Shown: positions 6,763 to 61,045 of the stretch, one piece after another
Layout of the letters: every line of letters starts with the position of its first letter
Position numbering within the stretch: position 1 is the first letter of the stretch
DNA from: Bacteriovorax sp. BSW11_IV
Lineage (GTDB): Bacteria > Bdellovibrionota > Bacteriovoracia > Bacteriovoracales > Bacteriovoracaceae
Direction: 5' to 3'
DNA length: 64,000 nucleotides
Assembly: GCF_000447755.1 (NCBI RefSeq)
Contig: NZ_AUNE01000010.1
Span: 1-64,000 of the forward strand
The notes under the pieces: generated by a model
Database searches by the model: none
What the model saw: only the letters and a program-made list of their open reading frames with translations
What the model was told of the DNA's origin: nothing
Program-made: the position numbers and the translations under genes

Positions 6763-8532
6763 TTATTGATTATTTTCTTCTTCTTTTTGTCTGAGTTCTT
6801 CTTCAACAGTGTAGTCGTTAACTAGACTGTTGATTTCTTCGACTTGAATAATCTTATTGGCCGTATTTTCAGAGGGATTATGTTGAACCTTAATCCCAGC
6901 GGCCTCAAGTTTTTCTTCTGCTTCTTCGGCATTAACAACGATGTTGTTATTGTTAAATGTATTAATAATCTCTCTCGCCTTTTCTGTTCCTTCTTCTGAG
7001 AAGGCCGAGTTGCTAAGCTCCTTAGAGATTGAATAAGTGTTGTTTTGCTTATCATTGGCCACATCGCGACCACCGTTTTGTCCGCTTGATTGAACATCTA
7101 GATAACCGGCCACAACGTTTGAGTAGTGAATTAGTTGGGCGTAGTTTTCAGTTTTTTGTGACAATTCATGTCCTATAGTCGTAAGGCGATTTAGCTTCTC
7201 TTGTTCTGCTTGCTCAGGACTAAGGTTAGTATTTTGATTGGTCGCGGCCGCCAACTTCTTTGACAAGGATTCGATCACTTGATTTTTTTGTAGTTCATAG
7301 CGACCAGTGATCTCAGCTTTAAGATTTTCAATATTTCCGGCCATCATTTCTTTAATTTTTTCGTCACTATAACCTTGGTCTTTAAGATACTTCTCAAGAT
7401 TACCATCATCTTTAAGATCTTCTTTTAGCTTTTCCGCAAGGGCCTTATTACGAAGCATCTGCTCCCCAATAAAGTCTTCATCTTGTTCTTCAAGAAACTG
7501 AGAACACTCCTCACCAAGATCTTTATTCTTAACACATTCTTCGATCTTTTCTTTATCTGCGACACTACCTTCATGGAACTTAGACTCAGCAACGAACTCT
7601 CCCGAAGTCACAGTAGTGAGATCATCTACTGTTTTTCCTTTTTCGTTACCAGAGAAATAACTTGGGTCATTTGTCTCAACCATATTCAGTTCGTCATAAC
7701 CTTTTTTAATCTTATCAATTGCAATGAGGTTTTGCTTTGCTGCCTTAATATAATTTACAACCTCACAGGCCCTCATCTTTGTGTAGCCATCTTTCATATT
7801 ATCGACACAAGTCTTTGTTGCAGGGTCTACAGTACAACTGCAATACGTCGGAGTTAACTTAATACACTCCATATAATTTTGCTTAGAACTACTTGAAAAA
7901 CTCGCGGCATCTTGCAAGTTCTTATCTCGAGCGGCCTTTCTTTTTGCGGAATCGCTATCAATAGAATATGAAATTGTTGTTTGAGGTTGACCATCTGGCC
8001 CAATAGTTGTTTTGGTATCATATTCAGCATCTAGACAGATTGATGAGAAGGCAGAAATTATATTTTTACCAACCTGAGTTTTAAAAAGGTCGTAAAAAAC
8101 TTCCTGGCCAGCGACTTTTTGTTGAATAAACTTTTTATCTCCAGAGACTTCTTGAAATAATACGGCCGAAAGTTTTTCATTCAGATACTTCTCTAAATTT
8201 TCAAAACCTTTTTTTTGTGAACCTTCTAGACCACCAGTACTTACTGATTCATAACGTGCATCAAGTTTTTTCCCATCTTTTGTTTGCTCTATAACTTGAA
8301 GAACTTGTTCTTTTTTACCATCATCCAAATTCTTCCAAAGACAATCACTCACATCTGAATTGCTACGCCCTGGTTGTTTACAGTTGGTATAAACTTCTTT
8401 TACTCCAGGTATTTCCATGGCCTTTGCAAGAGCGTCCATTGTTTTATTTTCAATGGCCTTTTGCTCCTCGGAAAAAGAATTTTGGAGAGTGGTTAACGAT
8501 ATAAATAAAATGAGCTTTTGAAGGTATTTCAT
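6763..8532 (-). CDS. exported coiled-coil-rich protein of unknown function
   Basis: 589 residues. N-terminal signal peptide (MKYLQKLILFISLTTLQNSFS). The mature part is very rich in E, K, Q and N, with long helical heptad-like stretches, especially residues 330-480. It has clustered cysteines near 200-260 (MECIKL, TYCSCTVD, KTCVDN, MRACEVV) and around 335-350, suggesting disulphides in the periplasm or outside the cell. No domain recognised. A FliA-like -10 box (GCCGATAA) ends seven bases before the ATG, so the transcript would be nearly leaderless; there is no Shine-Dalgarno. Confidence 0.8.
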   Translation of the reverse strand: MKYLQKLILFISLTTLQNSFSEEQKAIENKTMDALAKAMEIPGVKEVYTNCKQPGRSNSDVSDCLWKNLDDGKKEQVLQVIEQTKDGKKLDARYESVSTGGLEGSQKKGFENLEKYLNEKLSAVLFQEVSGDKKFIQQKVAGQEVFYDLFKTQVGKNIISAFSSICLDAEYDTKTTIGPDGQPQTTISYSIDSDSAKRKAARDKNLQDAASFSSSSKQNYMECIKLTPTYCSCTVDPATKTCVDNMKDGYTKMRACEVVNYIKAAKQNLIAIDKIKKGYDELNMVETNDPSYFSGNEKGKTVDDLTTVTSGEFVAESKFHEGSVADKEKIEECVKNKDLGEECSQFLEEQDEDFIGEQMLRNKALAEKLKEDLKDDGNLEKYLKDQGYSDEKIKEMMAGNIENLKAEITGRYELQKNQVIESLSKKLAAATNQNTNLSPEQAEQEKLNRLTTIGHELSQKTENYAQLIHYSNVVAGYLDVQSSGQNGGRDVANDKQNNTYSISKELSNSAFSEEGTEKAREIINTFNNNNIVVNAEEAEEKLEAAGIKVQHNPSENTANKIIQVEEINSLVNDYTVEEELRQKEEENNQ

Positions 8533-8539
8533 ACGTTAA

Positions 8540-8566
8540 TTATCGGCTATTTTCTCGAAAAATTAA
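8540..8566 (-). promoter_or_regulatory. FliA (sigma-28)-like promoter
   Basis: On the minus strand, TTAA (8566-8563), 15 bases, then GCCGATAA (8547-8540). The -10 box is identical to the FliA consensus; the -35 matches in part (TTAA, or TAAT at 14-base spacing, against TAAA). The start codon of the coiled-coil exported protein follows after seven bases. Confidence 0.55.
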
Positions 8567-8632
8567 AAAAATTCATATAATGGCCCTTATCACAATAATA
8601 GCGACAAAAATTATTGGCACTTTTACCCTCCC

Positions 8633-8650
8633 TGACCTTTCGGTCGGTCA
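8633..8650. promoter_or_regulatory. TGACC-N8-GGTCA operator-like palindrome before the acyl-CoA dehydrogenase
   Basis: Five-base inverted arms with a central CG pair, 80 bases upstream of the acyl-CoA dehydrogenase start and just upstream of a possible -10 (TATACA, 8664-8669). TetR-family repressors of fatty-acid degradation genes often bind palindromes of this size in this position. The assignment is inference. Confidence 0.4.
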
Positions 8651-8729
8651 AGTCATTCATCTGTATACAAAAAAAGATGGTGGCCCTAAAATAAAGGCAC
8701 AAATTAATTGAGGAAAAGGAAATATCTAA

Positions 8730-10493
8730 ATGAACTTCTTTGAAGACGAACAAGATTGGAAATGGCTCTTTAAAAATGGAATTGATTGGAAAACAATCCT
8801 TCCCCTTTACTATCAAAGCTACCCGACTGAGGAAGGTTTTGAGAAACCAGAAGACGTCATCTCTTTTATGGAAGAAATACTAAATAGTACTGGTGCATGG
8901 ACAGGCGGTGCCGTTAGCCAAAGAGCAGAAAAACTCGATCAAAATGGTGCAGGTCAAGTTGTCGATGGAAGAACTATTCCAGGTCCAGAACTATCTGCCC
9001 TGTACAAAGAAGCGGCAGAGCTTCAGGTGATTGGTTTGCCAATTCCTCCAGAGTTTGGTGGTCTAGGAATTCCAACAACGATCCTTATGTTCTTATTGGC
9101 CCAACTCTCTAGAGCATGTTTATCACAATCAACTCAACTTGCTTTTTTCACTTCTATTGCAGAAATGGTTCACCGCTTTTGCGATCATGAAACAGCACAA
9201 AGAATTATTCCAAAGATTATCGCTGGCGAGCTTAGTGGATCAATGAATTTAACTGAGCCTGGTTGTGGATCAGATCTTGGAATGATTAAAACGACTGCAA
9301 TAAAAAGAGAAGATGGAAAATACCTTCTAAATGGAAGCAAGATTTTCATCACTAACGGCGGTGGCGGTGTTGGATTTGTACTTGCTCGTATCAAAGGCGC
9401 GGCTGAGGGCCTTGCTGGAATTTCAATGTTCCTATGTGAGCAAGATATTCCAGAAAAAGATGGTCCTAACTATATTGTAGCTAAGAATGAACACAAAATG
9501 GGAATGCACGGATCATTTACGACTGAAGTTGTTTATGAAAATTCGGTTGCGTCCCTTGTTGGTGTAGAAGGCGAAGGTTTCAAATACATGCTTCACCTTA
9601 TGAACGAAGCAAGAATTGCTGTAGGCTTTCAGGCGCTAGGAACAATTGAAGGAGCAATTTCTTATGCTGTAAAATATGCAAATGAGCGCCAACAATTTGG
9701 AAAACCAATTGCAGAACTTCCCCTTATGAAAAGAAACCTCGAAGACTTTACAACTGAGCGCGATGCTCTTAGAGCTCTTCTAACAGACACCGTTTCTCAC
9801 TTTGACATCTTCCAAAAGCTAGATTTAAAGAAGAAAAAAACAAACGATCTCTCTAAAGAAGAACAAGTTCTTTTTAAAGAGGCCAGTCTATGGGTGAGAA
9901 AGAGAACTCCTCTAGTAAAGTACTACGCGTGTGAAGCAGCGACAAACCTATCTCAAAGAGCTATTCAGGTTCTTGGTGGTTATGGTTTTATGCATGAATA
10001 CCCAGTAGAAAGATTTCACCGTGATTCTTTCGGTCCACTTCTTTATGAAGGGACAAGTCAGATTCAGGCCCTGATGGCCCTTAAAGATATCATCAAATAC
10101 GCCATGAAAGACCCTAAGCGCTTCTTTAGCAACGTTTTTATTAAGCACCCAGGTATCAACCTTCTTGGTGGAAATTCTGCCTATGAAAAGAAATTGAAAA
10201 ATTCTCAATACCGCTTCAAAAAGAAGATGATTGGTCTGATTATTAAGACTCTTAAACCAGAGACTTCAAATAATCTTTTTAATGCTAAAGCATGGGCCAC
10301 GGAAGAAAATATTGATAAGCTCATGATTCACGCAGAAACTCTGTGCCAAGGTCTCTCTTACCTTGAAACGCTAAGGGTTCTAAGTGAGCATGCACAAAAA
10401 GATTCATCGCGCTCAGAGCTTTTCAACAGATACTATACTCTGATTACTCCGCGCCTTGAGGCCATCTATACAGATTGGGAAGTAAGAACTTAA
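8730..10493 (+). CDS. acyl-CoA dehydrogenase (about 600-residue FadE-type)
   Basis: FAD enzyme for the first step of fatty-acid beta-oxidation, making enoyl-CoA from acyl-CoA. 587 residues, longer than the classic 380-residue enzymes and typical of the large FadE/FadE5-like class with extensions at both ends. Visible motifs: GELSGSMNLTEPGCGSDLG (substrate/FAD loop), NGSKIFITNG, ERQQFGKPIAELPL, VLGGYGFMHEYPVERFHRD, and LYEGTSQIQ carrying the catalytic glutamate. AGGAAAAGGA lies before the ATG. Single-gene unit with its own terminator; an operator-like palindrome upstream suggests regulation by fatty-acid supply. Chain-length preference cannot be read from the sequence. Confidence 0.92.
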   Translation: MNFFEDEQDWKWLFKNGIDWKTILPLYYQSYPTEEGFEKPEDVISFMEEILNSTGAWTGGAVSQRAEKLDQNGAGQVVDGRTIPGPELSALYKEAAELQVIGLPIPPEFGGLGIPTTILMFLLAQLSRACLSQSTQLAFFTSIAEMVHRFCDHETAQRIIPKIIAGELSGSMNLTEPGCGSDLGMIKTTAIKREDGKYLLNGSKIFITNGGGGVGFVLARIKGAAEGLAGISMFLCEQDIPEKDGPNYIVAKNEHKMGMHGSFTTEVVYENSVASLVGVEGEGFKYMLHLMNEARIAVGFQALGTIEGAISYAVKYANERQQFGKPIAELPLMKRNLEDFTTERDALRALLTDTVSHFDIFQKLDLKKKKTNDLSKEEQVLFKEASLWVRKRTPLVKYYACEAATNLSQRAIQVLGGYGFMHEYPVERFHRDSFGPLLYEGTSQIQALMALKDIIKYAMKDPKRFFSNVFIKHPGINLLGGNSAYEKKLKNSQYRFKKKMIGLIIKTLKPETSNNLFNAKAWATEENIDKLMIHAETLCQGLSYLETLRVLSEHAQKDSSRSELFNRYYTLITPRLEAIYTDWEVRT

Positions 10494-10507
10494 TCTTTGA
10501 TTTTGTG

Positions 10508-10533
10508 GGGTCCCGAAAGGGGCCCTTTTTTTT
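10508..10533 (+). terminator. rho-independent terminator after the acyl-CoA dehydrogenase
   Basis: GGGTCCC and GGGGCCC arms (one G-T pair) closed by a GAAA tetraloop, then eight T. It also overlaps the stop codon region of the convergent lipoprotein gene. Confidence 0.9.
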
Positions 10534-11233
10534 AATTTGTTTCGCTTAGAACTGTTTGAATGAAGACACTGGACTGCTCTGGATATTCAGAACATTGAAC
10601 CTTTTTAACGATTTCTTTTACAACACCGGCCGTAAATTTATCAGACGAACTAATAACTTTTAATTCAACAATTTCTTTGGCCAAAATACTGCTACTTGCA
10701 TCACTTCTAGGGCCCTTGATTTTTCTTATGACATCAACTCCACCATATTCATTGGCAAAGAGAACCTGATACATTGTGCTATCATTGCCCTCATTTACAA
10801 CTTTCTTGGGTGTTCTATCGCTAAGAACATCATCACAAATTGTTTTAAGCTCACCATCGCGATCCGTTTGCATAATCGAGAAATATGAAATGGGAAGGCT
10901 ACCATCTAGATAAATAGGACCTGAAGATAAAAGCTGTTTAACTTCTAGGTCACCATTGTATTTCTTTACACCTTGCGGTTTCTCACAATCTTTATTATTA
11001 ATTTCTGTGCTAAATATTTTAGAACTTTGTAAACTTGTAAAGCTAACTCTCTTTGTTCTAAAAAGAGTACAGACCTTGTTAAGTGTTGTGACATCTTCAG
11101 ATGAAAAAGTACTAGAGATAAGATAATTTGTTCCGATGGCGCCACTTGAATAATTTGAGACGCGATTCTTATCACGGCCACAGCTCATAAGCGTAAGTAA
11201 AGTGAATGTAAGGACAATAAATAACCTTCTCAT
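10532..11233 (-). CDS. lipoprotein of unknown function
   Basis: 233 residues from the ATG at 11233 (MRRLFIVLTFTLLTLMSCGRDKN). The lipobox LMSC marks a signal peptidase II substrate; the residue after Cys is Gly, so outer-membrane sorting is plausible. An ATG ten codons upstream (11263) is in frame but falls inside the FliA-like promoter that ends eight bases before 11233, so the shorter start is preferred. Two cysteines (TICDDV, VQCSEYP) remain in the mature part. No domain recognised. Divergent from the methyltransferase gene. Confidence 0.8.
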   Translation of the reverse strand: MRRLFIVLTFTLLTLMSCGRDKNRVSNYSSGAIGTNYLISSTFSSEDVTTLNKVCTLFRTKRVSFTSLQSSKIFSTEINNKDCEKPQGVKKYNGDLEVKQLLSSGPIYLDGSLPISYFSIMQTDRDGELKTICDDVLSDRTPKKVVNEGNDSTMYQVLFANEYGGVDVIRKIKGPRSDASSSILAKEIVELKVISSSDKFTAGVVKEIVKKVQCSEYPEQSSVFIQTVLSETN

Positions 11234-11241
11234 TACGTATA

Positions 11242-11268
11242 TTATCGGAACCTTAAAAATCAACTTTA
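11242..11268 (-). promoter_or_regulatory. FliA (sigma-28)-like promoter, best match in the window
   Basis: On the minus strand TAAAGTTG (11268-11261) is followed by TCCGATAA (11249-11242), with exactly 15 bases between TAAA and the -10 box. Consensus is TAAA-N15-GCCGATAA, so only the first base of the -10 differs. The lipoprotein ATG is eight bases further on, which implies a leaderless or nearly leaderless mRNA. Confidence 0.7.
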
Positions 11269-11299
11269 ACTTTTTTCAATTTTGCGATATGAAGCAACC

Positions 11300-12064
11300 A
11301 TGGAAAAAACATTTCAAGGCAAGCTCGGCACATACATCGTAAGAGAAACTGAAGATAAAAGTCTCACCATTTGGTCAGGTTTTTTCGATGAAAACTGCCA
11401 TTCTTTGGCCGGTGCCATTAACGAAACCATCTATAATTACCTAGAAGGTGCAGAGGTTTTACCTAAACTCACAGAAGGAAGACCCTGCAGTGTTTTTGAA
11501 GTGGGTTTTGGCGCCGGAATAGGGCCAAAGTTAACTATAAACAAATGGCGTGAATTAGGCGCAAAGGCCCCCTTGTCATTTATAAGTACAGAACTAGACC
11601 CGGCCTTGGTAGAGTTTGTTCGCGACAATTCAGAAGAAGACTTTCTAAAAAATCTTGTACGCGATGAAAACGGACATTTTGTTTTTAAAGAGGGGCTTCT
11701 AACATTTAAAATCCTTATTGGTGATGCGCGCAAGACTATTAAAGAATTTCAAAAAGAGAATCATTTAATAGACTCTTTTTATCAAGATGCTTTTAGTCCC
11801 AAGAAAAATCCTGCACTTTGGACGGTGGAATGGTTTGAAGATTTGAAGATCATTGCAAAAGACCAAGCAGTGCTGTCAACTTACTCTTGTAGCAATGCCA
11901 TTCGAAAATCCCTTGTACAAGCAGGTTGGGCCGTTTTTAATCGCAAAGGTTTTGGGACAAAAAGACACGCTACCATCGCAAAGAGTCAAGGAGAGTCTAG
12001 TGATGAGATTCTTCTGTCTTTGTCACGCTCACCTGTTGTTGCATTAGTTGATCAAAATCTGTAA
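11300..12064 (+). CDS. MnmC-like (DUF752) SAM-dependent methyltransferase
   Basis: 254 residues. Matches the methyltransferase half of MnmC, which completes 5-methylaminomethyl-uridine at the tRNA wobble position: SAM-binding VFEVGFGAGIG, then FYQDAFSPKKNPALWT (the FLDGFxPxKNPxLW signature) and a C-terminal YSCSNAIRKSL...GWAVFNRKGFGTKRH segment. The FAD-dependent oxidase half of E. coli MnmC is absent, so this is the stand-alone MnmD-like form. Start placed at the ATG at 11300; an upstream TTG at 11282 is possible. No strong ribosome site. Cytoplasmic. Confidence 0.82.
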   Translation: MEKTFQGKLGTYIVRETEDKSLTIWSGFFDENCHSLAGAINETIYNYLEGAEVLPKLTEGRPCSVFEVGFGAGIGPKLTINKWRELGAKAPLSFISTELDPALVEFVRDNSEEDFLKNLVRDENGHFVFKEGLLTFKILIGDARKTIKEFQKENHLIDSFYQDAFSPKKNPALWTVEWFEDLKIIAKDQAVLSTYSCSNAIRKSLVQAGWAVFNRKGFGTKRHATIAKSQGESSDEILLSLSRSPVVALVDQNL

Positions 12065-12082
12065 GGATTTTTTATAATTTAC

Positions 12083-12109
12083 TAATATCTCGTTTCTTTT
12101 TTCCGATAA
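12083..12109 (+). promoter_or_regulatory. FliA (sigma-28)-like promoter
   Basis: TAAT (12083-12086), 15 bases, TCCGATAA (12102-12109). Lies 34 bases before the start codon of the receiver/HD-GYP-like gene, with an AAAAGGGTG ribosome site in between. One mismatch in each element against TAAA-N15-GCCGATAA. Confidence 0.5.
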
Positions 12110-12143
12110 TCAATGTGTTATAATAAAAAGAAAAGGGTGAAAC

Positions 12144-13499
12144 ATGGCGCAGGTAATAGTCGTTGAAGATAATCAAACAATGCTTGATCTTCTTACGTTA
12201 AATTTAAAAACCTTCGCAAGTGCAGATGTTATTCCTAGAGAGAACGCAGCGGAAGTTATAGACCTTCTCTCACTACTTCCTTCTGTAGACCTTATCATTG
12301 CAAAAAATTATATCAAAAATCAAAATGTCCCTCACGCAATTGTCGATTTTCTAATCGATAACAGACTCGATATACCTGTGATCATCGTTGGTGATGTGCA
12401 AGAAGACTATCCTGGAATTGAAGAAATCGCCACAACAGTGTCTGATACAAAAGATTGGGAAGAAATTGTAAAAACGGCCTGTAAGTCGTTAGGGGTTTCA
12501 GAAGAATCATTAACAAAGAAAATGAGTCCTGATTTTGTTCCTGTTCCCACTCGTTATTTTCTCTCACTTGAATCAACTTTTTGTGATGTCTATATTCGCA
12601 TTAAAAAGGGACCAGGTGATTATCAGTTTGTAAAACGTATCCATCAAGGTGAAAAGTATCCAATGGATGTTGTGAATAAGTATATAAACCAAGGCCTAAA
12701 GCACTTTTATATTGCCAAAGAATATGAAGAGAACTTTACAAACTTTGTTTCAAATCAACTTGTAGAAAAACTTAATGATAAAAGTATTAAGCTAGATGAG
12801 AAAATTGATATTATGGCCGAAGGTTATAGTATCGCTCTTCAAGAGATCTACAAAATGGGCTTTACAAGCGCAACAGTTCAGTTGGCCGAAAGTATCGTCC
12901 ACTCGATGATTGACACGTTTAAAGTTAATCCTGAGATGTCTCCCCTATTATTTAAAATTATTAACTCTAAAACGGGATACCTCTACCGTCACGCTCATAT
13001 GTGTTCAATTGTCTCTAGTGAGATTTTGAAAAACATGGGGCGTGATAAAAAAGAACTCCATGAAACCATGGCCTATGCCGCATTTTTTAAAGACATTGCG
13101 TTTGTTGAGAATGAAGAGCTTGCCAAAATTTCAACTTTCAATGCACTCGAAGAATCAGAATTAGATGAGTTTAGTTGGGACCTCGTGTTCAATCATGCCC
13201 AAGAGGCCGCAAATATTGTAAGAAAACTTGAAGATGCTCCTCTTGATGTTGATACAATTATCAAAAATCATCACGGTACAACTAATGGCCGTGGGTTTGC
13301 CACTGAAAATAACAAGACAGATTTTCCAAAATTATCCCTAATCTTTATTGTCGCTGTGGAGTTTACAAATGAGCTTTTGGCCTTTAAAGAACTTGGTCGC
13401 AAGCCACGTCCTATTGTCGATATCCTAAAAGAAAAGTATGATGTTTCTAAGATGAAAGATATTATTCATGCTTTAGAAAAGACAATTAAAAACTCTTAG
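12144..13499 (+). CDS. degenerate receiver plus HD-GYP-like protein
   Basis: 451 residues. Residues 1-110 have the receiver fold pattern (VIVVEDNQTML keeps the acidic pair), but the phospho-acceptor position reads IIAKNY (Ala53/Lys54), so it should not be phosphorylated. The C-terminal part resembles an HD-GYP domain: His in YRHAHM (about 283), FFKDIA in place of the HD pair (Lys316-Asp317), and NHHGTTNGRGF in place of HHERxDGxGYP. With the HD histidine and the GYP tyrosine and proline gone, c-di-GMP hydrolysis is unlikely; a binding or scaffold role is possible. AAAAGGGTG precedes the ATG. The next gene follows 18 bases after the stop. Confidence 0.8.
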   Translation: MAQVIVVEDNQTMLDLLTLNLKTFASADVIPRENAAEVIDLLSLLPSVDLIIAKNYIKNQNVPHAIVDFLIDNRLDIPVIIVGDVQEDYPGIEEIATTVSDTKDWEEIVKTACKSLGVSEESLTKKMSPDFVPVPTRYFLSLESTFCDVYIRIKKGPGDYQFVKRIHQGEKYPMDVVNKYINQGLKHFYIAKEYEENFTNFVSNQLVEKLNDKSIKLDEKIDIMAEGYSIALQEIYKMGFTSATVQLAESIVHSMIDTFKVNPEMSPLLFKIINSKTGYLYRHAHMCSIVSSEILKNMGRDKKELHETMAYAAFFKDIAFVENEELAKISTFNALEESELDEFSWDLVFNHAQEAANIVRKLEDAPLDVDTIIKNHHGTTNGRGFATENNKTDFPKLSLIFIVAVEFTNELLAFKELGRKPRPIVDILKEKYDVSKMKDIIHALEKTIKNS

Positions 13500-13517: not shown

Positions 13518-14471
13518 ATGACAAGATCTCCGTTTCCAAAAAGTCCAATTACGGATTTATTTGGTATTCAATATCCTATCATCCAGGCCGGAATGGTCTG
13601 GGTCTCTGGAGCAAAATTGGCCGCCGCCGCAAGTAATGCTGGATGCTTGGGACTCATCGGTGCCGGTTCAATGAAGCCCGACCTATTGAGATCACAAATA
13701 CAAAAAGCAAAGAAGCTAACATCAAAACCATTTGGGGTAAATATTCCTCTTTTGTACCATCTTGTGGAAGAGCAAATTAATGTTTGCTTAGAAGAAGGTG
13801 TAAAAATCTTTTTTACAAGTGCCGGTTCTCCAAAAAAATGGACGCAATACTTAAAAGATCATGGCGCCATTGTCGTTCATGTGACATCCACGCCAGAACT
13901 TGCAAAAAAATGCGAAGAGGCCGGATGTGACGCTGTCGTTGTTGAGGGATTTGAGGCCGGAGGTCATAATGGGCGTGATGAAATAACCACGATGTGCCTT
14001 ATTCCTCAAGTGGTCGATTCTTTAAAAATTCCGGTTATTGCGGCCGGTGGTATTGGTGATGGAAGAGCGATTCTTGCTAGCTTTGCACTAGGGGCCGATG
14101 CTGTTCAACTAGGAACGCGCTTTGCTCTTACTATTGAATCAAGTGCTCACGACAATTTTAAAAAGGCCATACAAAATGCAAAAAGTGGCGATACAAAACT
14201 CGTAATGAAACAGCTTGTGCCCGTTCGTTTGTTGAAAAATAAGTTCTACGACCAAGTCATTGAGCTAGAAAACAGATGTGCGACAAACGATGAGATGAAT
14301 GAACTTCTTGGAAAAGGCCGTGCCAAGGCCGGAATGCTAGAAGGCAATATGGATATGGGAGAGTTAGAAATTGGCCAAGTAAGTGCACTTCTAAAAGATA
14401 TACCTACATGCGAACAGTTGGTCCAAGATCTAATTTCTGAATATCACAAGGCCCTTACAAGGGTTTCATAA
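13518..14471 (+). CDS. FMN-dependent nitronate monooxygenase / FabK-like oxidoreductase
   Basis: 317 residues, TIM barrel of the 2-nitropropane dioxygenase/FabK superfamily: YPIIQAGMVWVSG at the N-terminus, GVNIPLL, the active-site segment VEGFEAGGHNG with its conserved His, the FMN phosphate loop PVIAAGGIGDGRAI and ALGADAVQLGTRFA. These enzymes either oxidise alkyl nitronates or, as FabK, reduce enoyl-ACP with NAD(P)H. Length and the C-terminal IGQVSALLKDI stretch fit FabK as well as nitronate monooxygenase, and sequence reading alone does not separate them. It overlaps the convergent giant gene by 17 bases. Confidence 0.85.
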   Translation: MTRSPFPKSPITDLFGIQYPIIQAGMVWVSGAKLAAAASNAGCLGLIGAGSMKPDLLRSQIQKAKKLTSKPFGVNIPLLYHLVEEQINVCLEEGVKIFFTSAGSPKKWTQYLKDHGAIVVHVTSTPELAKKCEEAGCDAVVVEGFEAGGHNGRDEITTMCLIPQVVDSLKIPVIAAGGIGDGRAILASFALGADAVQLGTRFALTIESSAHDNFKKAIQNAKSGDTKLVMKQLVPVRLLKNKFYDQVIELENRCATNDEMNELLGKGRAKAGMLEGNMDMGELEIGQVSALLKDIPTCEQLVQDLISEYHKALTRVS

Positions 14472-17400
14472 AGGCCTCTAAATAAGACATACATGTTTTG
14501 GCAGTTGTGGCATCAAGCATTTTCTCAAACCACTTTCTGCCAAAAGATGTCTGAATCTTCATCTTTACTTTATTTTTATCATTTAAAAATTGAGCAGACC
14601 CTGAATCAATAATGACCCAATCATCACTCACATCATTCCAGATGAGATTCGCTGGCCTTAAGTCACCAAAGTAAACTTCATTTTGAATCATTTTCTTTAC
14701 AATAGAAAAGAGCTTTTGCATTTTATAATCCTGCATATTCGCCCCTTGATTCAGCCAGTTTTTAATATAGTCCTCACCACTTTCACCTTCAATAAGTCTT
14801 CTGACAGAAAAGTTTTTTGAGCCAATGTAATATTCGGCATGAGTTAAACCAATCTTTTCATAGGCCTCAACACGCTTTTTCTCTTTACTGAGATCTTTCT
14901 CAAGAATACGTCCAACTTTAACAACGTAATCCATTCCTGCTTTATCTTGAAAGTGATAAACAAGAATCTTCGAATTCTCATGAACGCTTCCTAAATAATT
15001 CAAAATCCCCAGTTCTTTAGTCTCGATGATAAGTCCAGATTCGGGAGATTTAGTGAGAACATATTTCGCAAAACTATCGAGATCAATATTTTTAGCAGAG
15101 CTTTTTTCCAAGGCCTTTGCGCGTGGTTTAGTCTGTGGATTTGTTTGTTCACTTGAATGCGCGTAAGAGGCCAAGTATTGAGACTCAAGATTGTTCAATT
15201 TAGGACCTAAAATTGGAGCTAGACTACGAATTCTATTGGCAATTTTCGCATTCAACATTTTGGCTTCACTGCCATCAGCGATTAATTTTAGTAAATGACC
15301 ATAATAAGTAACAGAGATGGCCTTACCCTTGTATTTATTTTCCGTCATTTCAATAAAGCGAAAAATGAATGATTCATAAAGTTTTCCAGACATTAATTCT
15401 GGACTAACAAGATAATTTGATATCGTTTCAAAGATTTTCCCATTCAAATTCTTTTCATTCATTCCAAGAAAACCAATAATAAACTTTTCAGCAATATCTT
15501 TTGATTTGGTTCCTGAAATAGAACCTACTTCACGATATAAAAAAGTACTTAAGTCAGATGGCCTATCTGTATGATTAAGAATTTTTGTTATGCTCTCACT
15601 ATAACTCGAGCTTTCTTGCAACTTACGAGAGATGCGCAGAGATTCCACAATATTTTTAGGATAGTTTTCTAAATGAGGAATAATAACCTCTGAAACTAAA
15701 CGTTCACGTAGAACACTCGTTTTGTTCAAAATGCCCAGTACAAGTTCAGAAATACTTTTAGATTTCCCATTCTCGTAACAATACTCAATAAATTGATCTA
15801 AGTCTTTATCCGTAAACTGAGAAATGACATCAACAAGTTTATTTCTAAAATTTGTATTTTTAACCAATGCACTGTTTTTCTCTAAAATTGCTAGAAAAAT
15901 TTCTAGATGATCAAAGCTCTTTGATTGACCTAGTATAGTAAGAAAATATTTATTTTGAATCGTTTCTGGAGTAAGAAATTTATCTAGAATGTAATCAGAG
16001 GTCTTACTATCTAAGGTTACATTTAAATTTTCTAGAACATCGACTAGCGAATTAAAGACTATACCTTTGTCTTTAATTGAAGCAGCTTCGAGTCCCTTTA
16101 ACATCGAAAGAAATGTACTTTGATCAAAATTGTTGAGTGAAAATTTTTGTAAATGCCCTTTGATGGCCTGACCGGGTAATGCATTAGTGACATTGAGTGC
16201 ATCACTCAGGACACTTGAGAATTCAAAAAAAGCACTAAATGTTTTTACATCATACTTCTTTGCTTCCTTAGTTAATTCTAGATACTCAAACGGATACATT
16301 GGGTATTTAACAAGAAATAATTTCTGGGCCTCACTCAACTTTTTTAAGGCCTTAGTTGCGTCATCATAGATAGCATCTGCATCAATATTTAGTTCACTTA
16401 AAACGTGAGGAGCAATAATTTGGTTTCCAAAGACGACAGATGAAGCTAAGAGATTATCGTAAACAAGGTCTTTTATTCCTGTAATATTTAAAAACGATGC
16501 TAGCTTTTCATTATTATATGAAATGATTTTTTTAAAGAATAAATTATTATCAGCATCTTTGCCCATAGAGATGAGATTATCTAATTTAAGGAGTTTTTCA
16601 TATTCTTGGAGATGGGACTTTGAAATCTCGATTTTTCCAGGAAGAATAGAATTCAACATAAAAGGAAGATAGAGAGTCTTCTCTATACTACTTAAGGAGC
16701 CAGTCTTGTTGTATGAATTTAACACTGACTCAATAAAATAGTCGTAATTGGCCTTCGATTTAACAACTCTCATATAATCGTTTTCAAAATTCACAAAGTT
16801 TGAACTATCTCTAGCTATGGTCATAAAAAGATCAATCTTTTCTTTTGGACTTAACAGGTCAAGACGTCTTTTGACCTCTTTTGATGAAAGAGATGAGTTG
16901 AAATAATGATCATAAACGACACTTTTATCACTGTCGTTTTGTTTCTCTGAAGCATCTATATAAAGCAGAACTCTACGAAAAGTACTGTAGGCCAAATGTT
17001 CATCGTCACCACTTAATCTATTAAGAATATATGACGAACTAAGACTTTTCTTATGAAAATTTATAGATCTTCCTGAGCGAATATCGTTTATTCCCGCCTT
17101 AATGATTAGTCTATTCAATTTACTTTTTAGCTGCGTATTAAATTTCACTTTCAAAAGTAGCTCTTCAATAGCATTTTGATCCGAAATTTTTTCAATATCT
17201 CCGATTTGAAACATGGCATCTAAAATTTCTGTCAACTGTTTCTCGTTATCTGCGAGATTAGCAAAAAATGGCCAATTCGATTTGAGCAAAGTCCCTTCAT
17301 CCTCTTTGAAGAGTTTTGACCAAGTACTGTATTTAATCGAACTTACAAATTTTTTAGTTTTCTGATCATTTGACTGTAGAAATGATGAGGCCATGGCCCT

Positions 17401-20049
17401 TAGTAATTCAATTTGATTCTCATGGAGTTCGTCATCTTTTAGGGCCTCCATTAAAAGGACGAAATCTTCAAGATGAAAAAAGACTCTTACATCTGCATGA
17501 CTCAATTCTTGAATTGTTATGACAACTTCTTTAGTAAATAATTCAGAAGCACTATAATTGGGAAAAATCTTCATCAGTGAAGTTAGCAATGAGACATTTT
17601 TCGCTCCATGAGTCTGCGCGTGTTCGATAATACTCTTTGCAACAAACGCCGGAGTATACTTTGGTTTCATTTTAAGAAATTCAACAAGATCAGAATATGA
17701 ACCATTTCGAACAAGATCTTCTATGAGAACTTTATAAGTTAGCGCTTCTTCCTCTGCAGGAGAAACTGTTTTAAGCTCTGCAATTCTATAATTGTTATGA
17801 GAAAGATTTAAGGTTCCGTATGATGATAGAACATGAAAAAATGATTGATTGAAATTCTTTACATCATTTGTGAAAGTGAAATTTTCTAAATAGCTCTCAT
17901 TCAACGCCCTTGTCAAATTATGCTCAAATTCTAATTCGAGTTTTTGAAATCTGGCGTTCGTGGATGTTAGACTAGAATCAAATTTTGCACCATTTAGAAA
18001 AACAGCATCACTTTTTTGATCCACTTCATTTGGTTTAAGTTCATTTCTTAGATATGATAAAAGCTCAGAATTTTTTATATTAAAAACAACTGGTCTGCCG
18101 CTTTGTAAATAATCCTTAAGCGCATCGGACAAAAAGAAGTATTTTCCCCCAACCTTTATAGCTTGTTCACTTAAATTAGGAATCTCTGTAAAAGTAGCGT
18201 CAGTGATTAATAAGGGACGGCTTTTAAAATCAAAATCGATGGCCCTGTTATTCCATTTTGGCTGATGTTCTAAAACGCTCACTCTAAAACTTGCCGACCC
18301 ACCACCATTTACAATCTGTTCGACATTAATTCCCTTTTTACGGGCATACATCTCAAAGGCATTGTTATTCCATTTTTCAATATAACTTGGTGCAGTTTCA
18401 CTCTTCCAAATAAACTTCCACTTTACTTTATCCGCAATAGCAAGCCCCTCAAGTGACTGTGACAATTTATCGGGAATTGTTCCTTGATAACCTAGATCAA
18501 GAAGGATGAGCTCACCTTTTTCGTTTATTTTATTTTCATCTATCCTCAAAATGGCCATTTTATCTTTATCGGAAATTTGCCCCTGAACAAGCTTTGCGGC
18601 CACATCGCGAGAGATATTTACAGGAAGCACTCGTTTCAATAGTTCTTTTTTTACGGCAAATGAATTTGTTAAAGTAAAATCATCTTCTGAGAGAAATTGT
18701 ACTAAACGATAATAGATATCATCCATATCACGTGCAAATAAACGAATTTCATCCTCTGGGTTCTCGAGAAGATAAGTGATTATTTCAAAGGCCTGAAAAC
18801 TCAAAAACTTATCATAAAGATCATAAACTTGCTCTGCCGAAGCCCCAGTACTTGTCATAAAAGCGCGGGCCTGAATACTCTCCTGCAAAGTTGATTTCAC
18901 CGCCCGAACAATATCTTCTTGTTCAGTCTCAGGTCTCGATTTAATATACTCAATCATCTCTTCAGGCAAAGGTGGAAATTTATTTTTTGCAAAATGCTCT
19001 ATAGAACTTATTGCACTTTTTGTTTGTGATTTCTTCTTGTCAATTCCATTGATCAAAAATTTATTGTAATCATAACCAAGATTATTTGCTTCTTCGATAA
19101 CCGTTTTTTTGACATCAAATTCTTCGGTAAATTCATAGATGGTCTTCATTATTGAGAGAACTTTCTTTTTAGTCTCTAGTGAGCTTTGTGGGCCAGAATT
19201 AGATAAAAGGCTCCCATTCTCTCTGTGTGTAAGACCACTAAAAGACCCGTGCCACTCGGGAAGATTGTAACTTATTGCACTGCCAATATCTTCAATGGCG
19301 GCCATGGGAAATAGCCCCGTAAAGACTTCAGGACCAGCGCTATCATCGACATTCATGAGGGCCCTTGCGACTTTGTCTTTAACTTCTTCTATTTTATCAA
19401 GATTTGCTCCGTCTGATCCTCCATTGGCAAAACCTATAAAACCAATTTTTTCTGAAAATATTTTCGCATCACCATTTTTCTTATAATAATCATTCCATAA
19501 AGCACTCATGAGCATTCGTGGTTGATTGCCACCATGAATACTTGAAACAACATCGATGAAAACAACAGGTCTTTTCATACTTAGAAAGTCTGTGGATATA
19601 CCAAAGGCCTTTTGAAATTCGACTAATTGCGATCCTGAGGCGTGATTGAAAGTTGCCGTACTGGCATCAATTCTCACAACTCGATCAGAGTTACCCCACT
19701 TGTCGAGAATGGCCTCAAATATATCGGCCTCATACGCAATATCTCTGCCCACAAACGCCAAAGTTGCCCCTGGATAATGCTTATCAATAAGGGCGATCAT
19801 CTTGGGTATTTTTTCTTTAACTTTTAATTCTATTGAATTTCTGATGGATTCATCTTCGATTTCTTCTATTCCATCAAGGGATTGCAAAATCTTTTTAATC
19901 GTAGGGCGCTTTTCACTATTGGCAATTTTAACTTGCTCAACACTTGCAATTTTTCGACCTGAGTCAATGTGATGTAGCGGTCCTTGTACTTTAACAACGA
20001 CAGCAAAGAAGAGAAGAAGGCCTAAAATTTTAAGATGTTTGTACAGCAT
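14455..20049 (-). CDS. giant exported protein with C-terminal kinase-like domain
   Basis: 1864 residues. A hydrophobic N-terminus (residues 8-22) is a signal peptide or anchor. Residues 85-260 contain FVGRDIAYEADIF (99-111) and RPVVFIDVVSSIHGG (160-174), reminiscent of phosphoribosyltransferase-like folds. Residues 430-550 contain LFARDMDDIYYRL and LLDLGYQGTIPDKL, resembling the HAD-like ARDG...DIGWxGSI modules seen beside glycosyltransferases. About 750-1640 is all-helical, probably solenoid. Residues 1707-1864 look like a phosphotransferase of the APH/RIO/Kdo-kinase type: VVKV (Lys1711), an acidic helix, hinge VRRLIEGESG, catalytic loop FGDLRPANL (Asp1796, Asn1801), metal loop IIDSG (Asp1815). 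All catalytic positions are kept. No named family recognised; domain names other than the kinase-like end are tentative. Confidence 0.85.
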   Translation of the reverse strand: MLYKHLKILGLLLFFAVVVKVQGPLHHIDSGRKIASVEQVKIANSEKRPTIKKILQSLDGIEEIEDESIRNSIELKVKEKIPKMIALIDKHYPGATLAFVGRDIAYEADIFEAILDKWGNSDRVVRIDASTATFNHASGSQLVEFQKAFGISTDFLSMKRPVVFIDVVSSIHGGNQPRMLMSALWNDYYKKNGDAKIFSEKIGFIGFANGGSDGANLDKIEEVKDKVARALMNVDDSAGPEVFTGLFPMAAIEDIGSAISYNLPEWHGSFSGLTHRENGSLLSNSGPQSSLETKKKVLSIMKTIYEFTEEFDVKKTVIEEANNLGYDYNKFLINGIDKKKSQTKSAISSIEHFAKNKFPPLPEEMIEYIKSRPETEQEDIVRAVKSTLQESIQARAFMTSTGASAEQVYDLYDKFLSFQAFEIITYLLENPEDEIRLFARDMDDIYYRLVQFLSEDDFTLTNSFAVKKELLKRVLPVNISRDVAAKLVQGQISDKDKMAILRIDENKINEKGELILLDLGYQGTIPDKLSQSLEGLAIADKVKWKFIWKSETAPSYIEKWNNNAFEMYARKKGINVEQIVNGGGSASFRVSVLEHQPKWNNRAIDFDFKSRPLLITDATFTEIPNLSEQAIKVGGKYFFLSDALKDYLQSGRPVVFNIKNSELLSYLRNELKPNEVDQKSDAVFLNGAKFDSSLTSTNARFQKLELEFEHNLTRALNESYLENFTFTNDVKNFNQSFFHVLSSYGTLNLSHNNYRIAELKTVSPAEEEALTYKVLIEDLVRNGSYSDLVEFLKMKPKYTPAFVAKSIIEHAQTHGAKNVSLLTSLMKIFPNYSASELFTKEVVITIQELSHADVRVFFHLEDFVLLMEALKDDELHENQIELLRAMASSFLQSNDQKTKKFVSSIKYSTWSKLFKEDEGTLLKSNWPFFANLADNEKQLTEILDAMFQIGDIEKISDQNAIEELLLKVKFNTQLKSKLNRLIIKAGINDIRSGRSINFHKKSLSSSYILNRLSGDDEHLAYSTFRRVLLYIDASEKQNDSDKSVVYDHYFNSSLSSKEVKRRLDLLSPKEKIDLFMTIARDSSNFVNFENDYMRVVKSKANYDYFIESVLNSYNKTGSLSSIEKTLYLPFMLNSILPGKIEISKSHLQEYEKLLKLDNLISMGKDADNNLFFKKIISYNNEKLASFLNITGIKDLVYDNLLASSVVFGNQIIAPHVLSELNIDADAIYDDATKALKKLSEAQKLFLVKYPMYPFEYLELTKEAKKYDVKTFSAFFEFSSVLSDALNVTNALPGQAIKGHLQKFSLNNFDQSTFLSMLKGLEAASIKDKGIVFNSLVDVLENLNVTLDSKTSDYILDKFLTPETIQNKYFLTILGQSKSFDHLEIFLAILEKNSALVKNTNFRNKLVDVISQFTDKDLDQFIEYCYENGKSKSISELVLGILNKTSVLRERLVSEVIIPHLENYPKNIVESLRISRKLQESSSYSESITKILNHTDRPSDLSTFLYREVGSISGTKSKDIAEKFIIGFLGMNEKNLNGKIFETISNYLVSPELMSGKLYESFIFRFIEMTENKYKGKAISVTYYGHLLKLIADGSEAKMLNAKIANRIRSLAPILGPKLNNLESQYLASYAHSSEQTNPQTKPRAKALEKSSAKNIDLDSFAKYVLTKSPESGLIIETKELGILNYLGSVHENSKILVYHFQDKAGMDYVVKVGRILEKDLSKEKKRVEAYEKIGLTHAEYYIGSKNFSVRRLIEGESGEDYIKNWLNQGANMQDYKMQKLFSIVKKMIQNEVYFGDLRPANLIWNDVSDDWVIIDSGSAQFLNDKNKVKMKIQTSFGRKWFEKMLDATTAKTCMSYLEAFMKPL

Positions 20050-20051
20050 AT

Positions 20052-20100
20052 CCGACTTATCGGATCAGATAAGTTCGGGCCTAAAATTACTAGACCCGAA
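20052..20100 (-). promoter_or_regulatory. two overlapping hairpins and a FliA-like -10 upstream of the giant gene
   Basis: Hairpin A: arms 20074-20083 and 20091-20100 (TTCGGGCCTA / TAGACCCGAA), ten pairs with one G-T. Hairpin B: CCGACTTATC (20052-20061) against GATAAG-T-TCGG (20068-20078), ten pairs with one bulge, ending two bases before the start codon. They share bases 20074-20078, so both cannot form fully together. The strand read by the giant gene also contains TCCGATAA (20064-20057) seven bases before the ATG, like the FliA-like sites elsewhere here, although its -35 (TAGG) is poor. Either a leader switch or a promoter/operator is possible. Confidence 0.45.
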
Positions 20101-60830: not shown

Positions 60831-60858
60831 TAAATTTATCAACGTAATATGCCGATAA
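60831..60858 (+). promoter_or_regulatory. FliA (sigma-28)-like promoter
   Basis: TAAA (60831-60834), 16 bases, GCCGATAA (60851-60858). The -10 is identical to the FliA consensus; the spacer is one base longer than the usual 15. It lies 28 bases before the start codon of the 52-residue lipoprotein. Confidence 0.55.
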
Positions 60859-60886: not shown

Positions 60887-61045
60887 ATGAAAAAAATAAT
60901 TTCTATTGTCGCCCTATCGATGCTTGCTCTGACATTGGCCTCTTGCGCAAGCTCAAATAGGAAACCGGCATCATCATGTGATGAATCGTACTTCCAAGAT
61001 CAGTATCGCTACTTTGATCACTACGAGCGCTGTAACAACTACTAA
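60887..61045 (+). CDS. very small lipoprotein (52 residues)
   Basis: Reading from the ATG at 60887, preceded by AAAGGAG: MKKIISIVALSMLALTLASC is a lipoprotein signal with lipobox LASC, followed by 32 residues with two further cysteines (SSCDES and ERCNNY) and many aromatic residues (YFQDQYRYFDHY). Good ribosome site, FliA-like promoter and its own strong terminator support it as a real gene despite its size. Function unknown. Confidence 0.75.
   Translation: MKKIISIVALSMLALTLASCASSNRKPASSCDESYFQDQYRYFDHYERCNNY

Follow-up and report, generated by a model that had tools for sequence, protein, structure and literature searches.

FliA-type promoters abutting start codons in Bacteriovoracaceae: a class of predicted leaderless mRNAs rich in exported proteins

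In a 64,000-nucleotide stretch of Bacteriovorax sp. BSW11_IV (contig NZ_AUNE01000010.1, positions 1 to 64,000; hereafter the window), the heptamer CCGATAA and a TAAA-like partner stand before several genes, and in some cases the heptamer ends only 7 or 8 nt from the ATG. Are these boxes promoters of the flagellar sigma factor FliA (sigma28), and do the genes they abut give mRNAs that lack a leader? An earlier note on this DNA had proposed both. All of the boxes that it placed are present in the sequence, and they and their genes are as follows.

8540..8566, minus strand: FliA-type promoter TTAA-N16-CCGATAA, box end 7 nt before the ATG at 8532; predicted leaderless
6763..8532, minus strand: 589-aa exported protein, signal-like N terminus (MKYLQKLILFISLTTL...), coiled-coil-like
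11242..11268, minus strand: FliA-type promoter TAAA-N16-CCGATAA, box end 8 nt before the ATG at 11233
10532..11233, minus strand: 233-aa predicted lipoprotein (MRRLFIVLTFTLLTLMSCGRD...)
12083..12109, plus strand: FliA-type promoter TAAT-N16-CCGATAA; leadered, 34 nt from box to ATG, Shine-Dalgarno-like AAGGGTG
12144..13499, plus strand: 451-aa receiver-like/HD-domain protein, the receiver domain called by eye
20057..20084, minus strand: FliA-like promoter TTAGG-N16-CCGATAA of a giant gene, -35 partial, box end 7 nt before the ATG at 20049
14455..20049, minus strand: 1864-aa giant protein with a hydrophobic N terminus
60831..60858, plus strand: FliA-like promoter TAAA-N17-CCGATAA; leadered, 28 nt to ATG, Shine-Dalgarno AAAGGAG
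60887..61045, plus strand: 52-aa predicted lipoprotein (MKKIISIVALSMLALTLASCASS...), read from the sequence

The -10 box, (N)CCGATAA, is present at all five sites (8540, 11242, 12083, 60831, and the giant gene). Its TAAA/TTAAG-like -35 partner lies at N16 at 8540, 11242, and 12083 and at N17 at 60831, a weaker site whose spacer is one base longer than that of the main class. For the giant gene, the earlier description of a -10 box only proved slightly too strict and was dropped: a partial -35, TTAGG at 20080-20084, sits N16 from the CCGATAA at 20057-20063 (minus strand), which is followed by GTCGGAT and the ATG. The 8540..8566 site reads TTAATTTTTCGAGAAAATAGCCGATAA, TTAACGT, and the ATG of the exported-protein gene; the 11242..11268 site reads TAAAGTTGATTTTTAAGGTTCCGATAA, TATACGTA, and the ATG of the lipoprotein gene. 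The claim that ATGs follow within eight bases held at 8532 (7 nt), 11233 (8 nt), and the giant gene (7 nt); the 8532 and 11233 genes have no Shine-Dalgarno sequence before their ATGs and no room for one between box and ATG.

A Pfam search assigned no family to the 589-aa protein, the 233-aa lipoprotein, or the 1864-aa giant protein, and the 451-aa protein matched HD_5 at an E value of 2e-4 and 21.6 bits, under the Pfam cutoff of 27.2. The N terminus of the giant protein resembles a signal peptide or membrane anchor, and its C-terminal part (residues ~1690-1830) contains a kinase-like stretch (YFGDLRPANLIW...DWVIIDSGS) with a match in G017 (L293).

The window contains 15 copies of CCGATAA, compared with 5.9 ± 2.8 in shuffled sequence, and none of 100 shuffles reached 15; the fuller pattern TAAA-N14..16-NCCGATAA occurs twice, against 0.19 expected. 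Half or more of these CCGATAA words fall within open reading frames (ORFs), and these copies (18467, 18566, 30914, 32205, 40180, 57673, and others) are probably due to chance. The enrichment anticipated for the whole genome (3.65 Mb) was also found, with 56 matches to TWAW-N14..16-CCGATAA and 13 to the reversed pattern. By spacing, the 56 divide into 33 with N16, 6 with N15, and 17 with N14; the N16 matches are mostly intergenic and directly 5' of ORFs, and those with N14 or N15 lie mostly within coding sequence.

A profile search confirmed the expected fliA gene (C17:11143-11817; 271.5 bits, above the NCBIfam cutoff). Its product matched FliA in named records from Bacteriovoracaceae, Halobacteriovorax, and Bacteriovorax, the best at 89% identity (UBA6166). 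In Bdellovibrio bacteriovorus HD100, TTAAG-N16-CCGATA is reported at 92 of 140 mapped attack-phase promoters, or about two-thirds (PMC3627812); B. bacteriovorus FliA is active on such promoters in Escherichia coli, and fliA could not be deleted in Bdellovibrio (PMC5430801). By sequence comparison, the window boxes match this published Bdellovibrio FliA promoter (PMC3627812). The further expectation of enrichment before flagellar and secreted genes found support on the secreted side. Many exported-protein genes are preceded by a box; no clear FliA box was found in the stretches around fliA and flgBC, and flagellin genes were not located in the genome.

We then asked how the box is placed relative to start codons in related genomes by tallying distances wherever the promoter pattern was followed by an ATG at 3 to 30 nt. 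The 300 matches from 19 family genomes peak at 7 nt, with 41 there and ~8 per position past 9 nt, in counts where the genomes are related to one another and a box with two downstream ATGs is counted twice. Each of the two separate genome sets that make up this total has the peak (23/150 and 18/150, with ~3 to 5 per position past 9 nt). Across 83 family genomes, an ATG stood 6 to 8 nt after the box in 374 cases and 10 to 12 nt after it in 115; in a second family (f6, 43 genomes) the corresponding counts were 138 and 42, and families f8 and f10 had smaller excesses at 6 to 8 nt, with 241 genomes of the phylum searched in all.

The short-spaced ATGs mostly open genuine genes. Reading of most sites in the first 19 genomes covered 87 ATGs at 6 to 8 nt. 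An ORF of 60 or more codons begins at 67 of them, and in 63 of these cases there is no long frame upstream. Of these 63 real ORFs, 48 have a hydrophobic N terminus of the signal-peptide or lipoprotein type beginning at that very ATG, as called by a hydropathy rule rather than by SignalP. In the Bacteriovorax sp. BSW11_IV genome, the class includes the two window genes (8532 and 11233), L009 (DUF900 alpha/beta hydrolase), and L027, with GTG starts at L008 (metallophosphoesterase) and possibly L053. The products of three FliA-box genes of this genome (L005, L006, and L053) are related exported proteins that share a G/SYxGRLVxxxNG motif close to the N terminus, reminiscent of Bdellovibrio tail-fiber-like adhesins. 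Leaderless FliA genes in relatives also include products that look cytosolic by eye, globin-like (L114 and L135) and DHH-phosphoesterase-like (L123 and L134), and each pair is short-spaced in two genera.

The 589-aa protein has relatives in 53 of the 79 family genomes, with protein identities of roughly 26-44%. Among its best 30 loci (own included), the box lies exactly 7 nt before the ATG in 16 and at 5 to 8 nt in 20; one locus, L255, was left out of this count because its match belongs to the adjacent lipoprotein gene. The element shared by these relatives is approximately ACTCAAG-N16-NCGATAATANNNNT-ATG. Among relatives of the 233-aa lipoprotein, some dozen loci have a box, mostly 6 to 9 nt before the start and in some cases altered by a single base; the boxes in G003, G061, and G068 are the same sites as pattern-search matches. 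Two likely relatives of the 12144 gene, paired with it by eye and not by search, differ in layout: in L307 (G008) the FliA box is followed by a 21-nt stretch with a Shine-Dalgarno sequence before the ATG, and in L125 (G014) the box is only 6 nt from the ATG. As read from these sequences, box spacing at this receiver-like gene appears to have turned over. The giant gene has matches in 3 of 79 family genomes, own included, and in its G011 relative 4 nt separate a FliA box from an ATG. In G001, G003, G008, G061, and G068, relatives of the exported-protein gene and of the lipoprotein gene are found within ~2 to 5 kb of one another, as in the window at 6763-13499, and the G008 neighborhood also includes a relative of the receiver-like gene, which suggests that a FliA-driven gene neighborhood is conserved among these five genomes. 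The earlier reading of the mRNAs as leaderless or near-leaderless thus gains support, at the level of sequence, from the sharp family-wide spacing peak and its conservation in gene relatives.

Together, these results favor a reading to which we assign a probability of about 0.8: the boxes are FliA promoters, and a subset that abuts coding sequence gives leaderless mRNAs, mostly for exported or envelope proteins. The presence of fliA, the motif enrichment, the peak at 6 to 8 nt, the real ORFs with signal-like N termini, and the conserved spacing are all observed; FliA dependence, the exact transcript start, and leaderless translation are what we infer. FliA would recognize the boxes as promoters, and, where a promoter abuts a gene, RNA polymerase would start at the start codon or within a nucleotide or two of it. 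In Campylobacter jejuni, mapped transcript starts follow sigma28 boxes by 6 to 8 nt (PMC3847290). A box-to-ATG distance of 7 nt therefore predicts a start on the A of AUG or no more than two bases away. The resulting mRNA would have neither leader nor Shine-Dalgarno sequence and would therefore need direct ribosome loading at the 5' AUG. Because the subset mostly encodes signal-peptide or lipobox proteins, it may amount to an envelope and secretion program under a motility sigma factor, probably run in free-swimming cells. Attack-phase expression of these genes would follow by analogy with B. bacteriovorus (PMC3627812).

One alternative accepts the FliA promoters as real but has the short-spaced genes make most of their protein from upstream promoters on leadered mRNA. 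In its favor, the 12144 gene has a sigma70-like extended -10, TGTTATAAT, at 12116-12124 (plus strand) just downstream of its FliA box, so that this gene may have two promoters. However, selection has kept the 7-nt spacing in relatives with as little as about 26-44% protein identity, a constancy that an idle start would leave unexplained, and the lack of a Shine-Dalgarno sequence before the short-spaced ATGs argues against leadered translation from upstream; we consider this account improbable. That the box is read by another sigma70-family factor is a thought invited by three weaker FliA-model matches elsewhere in the genome, presumably other sigma factors. It is very unlikely, given that the -35, spacing, and -10 are those of the FliA consensus mapped in B. 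bacteriovorus (PMC3627812), and that such promoters can be driven by the B. bacteriovorus protein in E. coli (PMC5430801).

An origin of the motif and nearby ATGs by chance in an AT-rich genome is scarcely credible. Chance would allow the intra-ORF share of CCGATAA words noted above, but it would not account for the enrichment, the N16 preference, the spacing peak, signal peptides that start exactly at the ATG, or conservation in relatives. Enrichment and conservation rule it out for the promoter class; single sites such as 60831 (N17) are weaker. On the FliA reading, we also considered a functional switch in which attack-phase cells preferentially translate leaderless FliA mRNAs, with 70S ribosomes as one possible means. 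FliA would then govern the transcription as well as the translation mode of an envelope arsenal, an arrangement that much of Bdellovibrionota would share. We regard this as speculative and rather unlikely.

Leaderlessness itself is probably not specific to FliA. In the whole genomes G000 and G001, the sigma70-like extended -10 TGNTATAAT, a pattern that overall is no commoner than its reversed control, is followed by an ATG at 6 to 8 nt in 22 of 97 cases, a weaker excess that points to this conclusion; judged from such patterns, leaderless mRNAs may be more widely used in the clade, sigma70-type promoters included. A stricter sigma70 control, TTGAC-N18-TATAAT, had almost no matches in the family and was uninformative, and TGNTATAAT was used in its place; a local control on 565 kb (the fliA loci and the window) yielded too few events.

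FliA promoters of this form, leaderless mRNAs, and FliA control of such genes in Bdellovibrio are already known. What appears to be new is a family-wide class of leaderless genes that is linked to FliA, keeps its spacing among relatives, and encodes many exported proteins. No report of such a class was found in the literature searched, a scope outside which most subscription journals fall, and none joined Bdellovibrio, FliA, and leaderless mRNAs; papers on Bdellovibrio and leaderless mRNAs concern other matters by title and abstract. FliA is known in Bdellovibrio as a global regulator of predation-related genes, and its promoter now extends to Bacteriovoracaceae. A large leaderless gene class would be predictable from sequence and tied to one alternative sigma factor. 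Such a class would pin down where translation begins in many exported proteins that lack annotation, and would open to testing whether swimming cells that do not grow differ in how they translate leaderless messages.

Three known systems invite comparison. FliA (sigma28) class 3 promoters of E. coli have the form TAAA-N15-GCCGATAA. The promoters described here share their hexamers and register; unlike them, they do not fix the first -10 base to G, a subset abuts the start codon, and the located targets are mostly non-flagellar. The closer parallel is the B. bacteriovorus HD100 regulon, with the same TTAAG-N16-CCGATA promoter, a fliA gene, and many non-flagellar surface or exported genes among the FliA targets, as reported in PMC5430801 and PMC3627812. 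It differs in belonging to another family of the phylum, and here a defined subset abuts the start codon. Leaderless mRNAs are known in C. jejuni and Leptospira interrogans, likewise with a -10 ~6 to 8 nt before the start codon, no room for a Shine-Dalgarno sequence, and turnover between leadered and leaderless forms among relatives (PMC3847290, PMC5243855). In C. jejuni these mRNAs come after sigma70 boxes and show little conservation from species to species (PMC3847290), whereas here a sigma28 box stands at fixed spacing in the relatives of one gene across a family.
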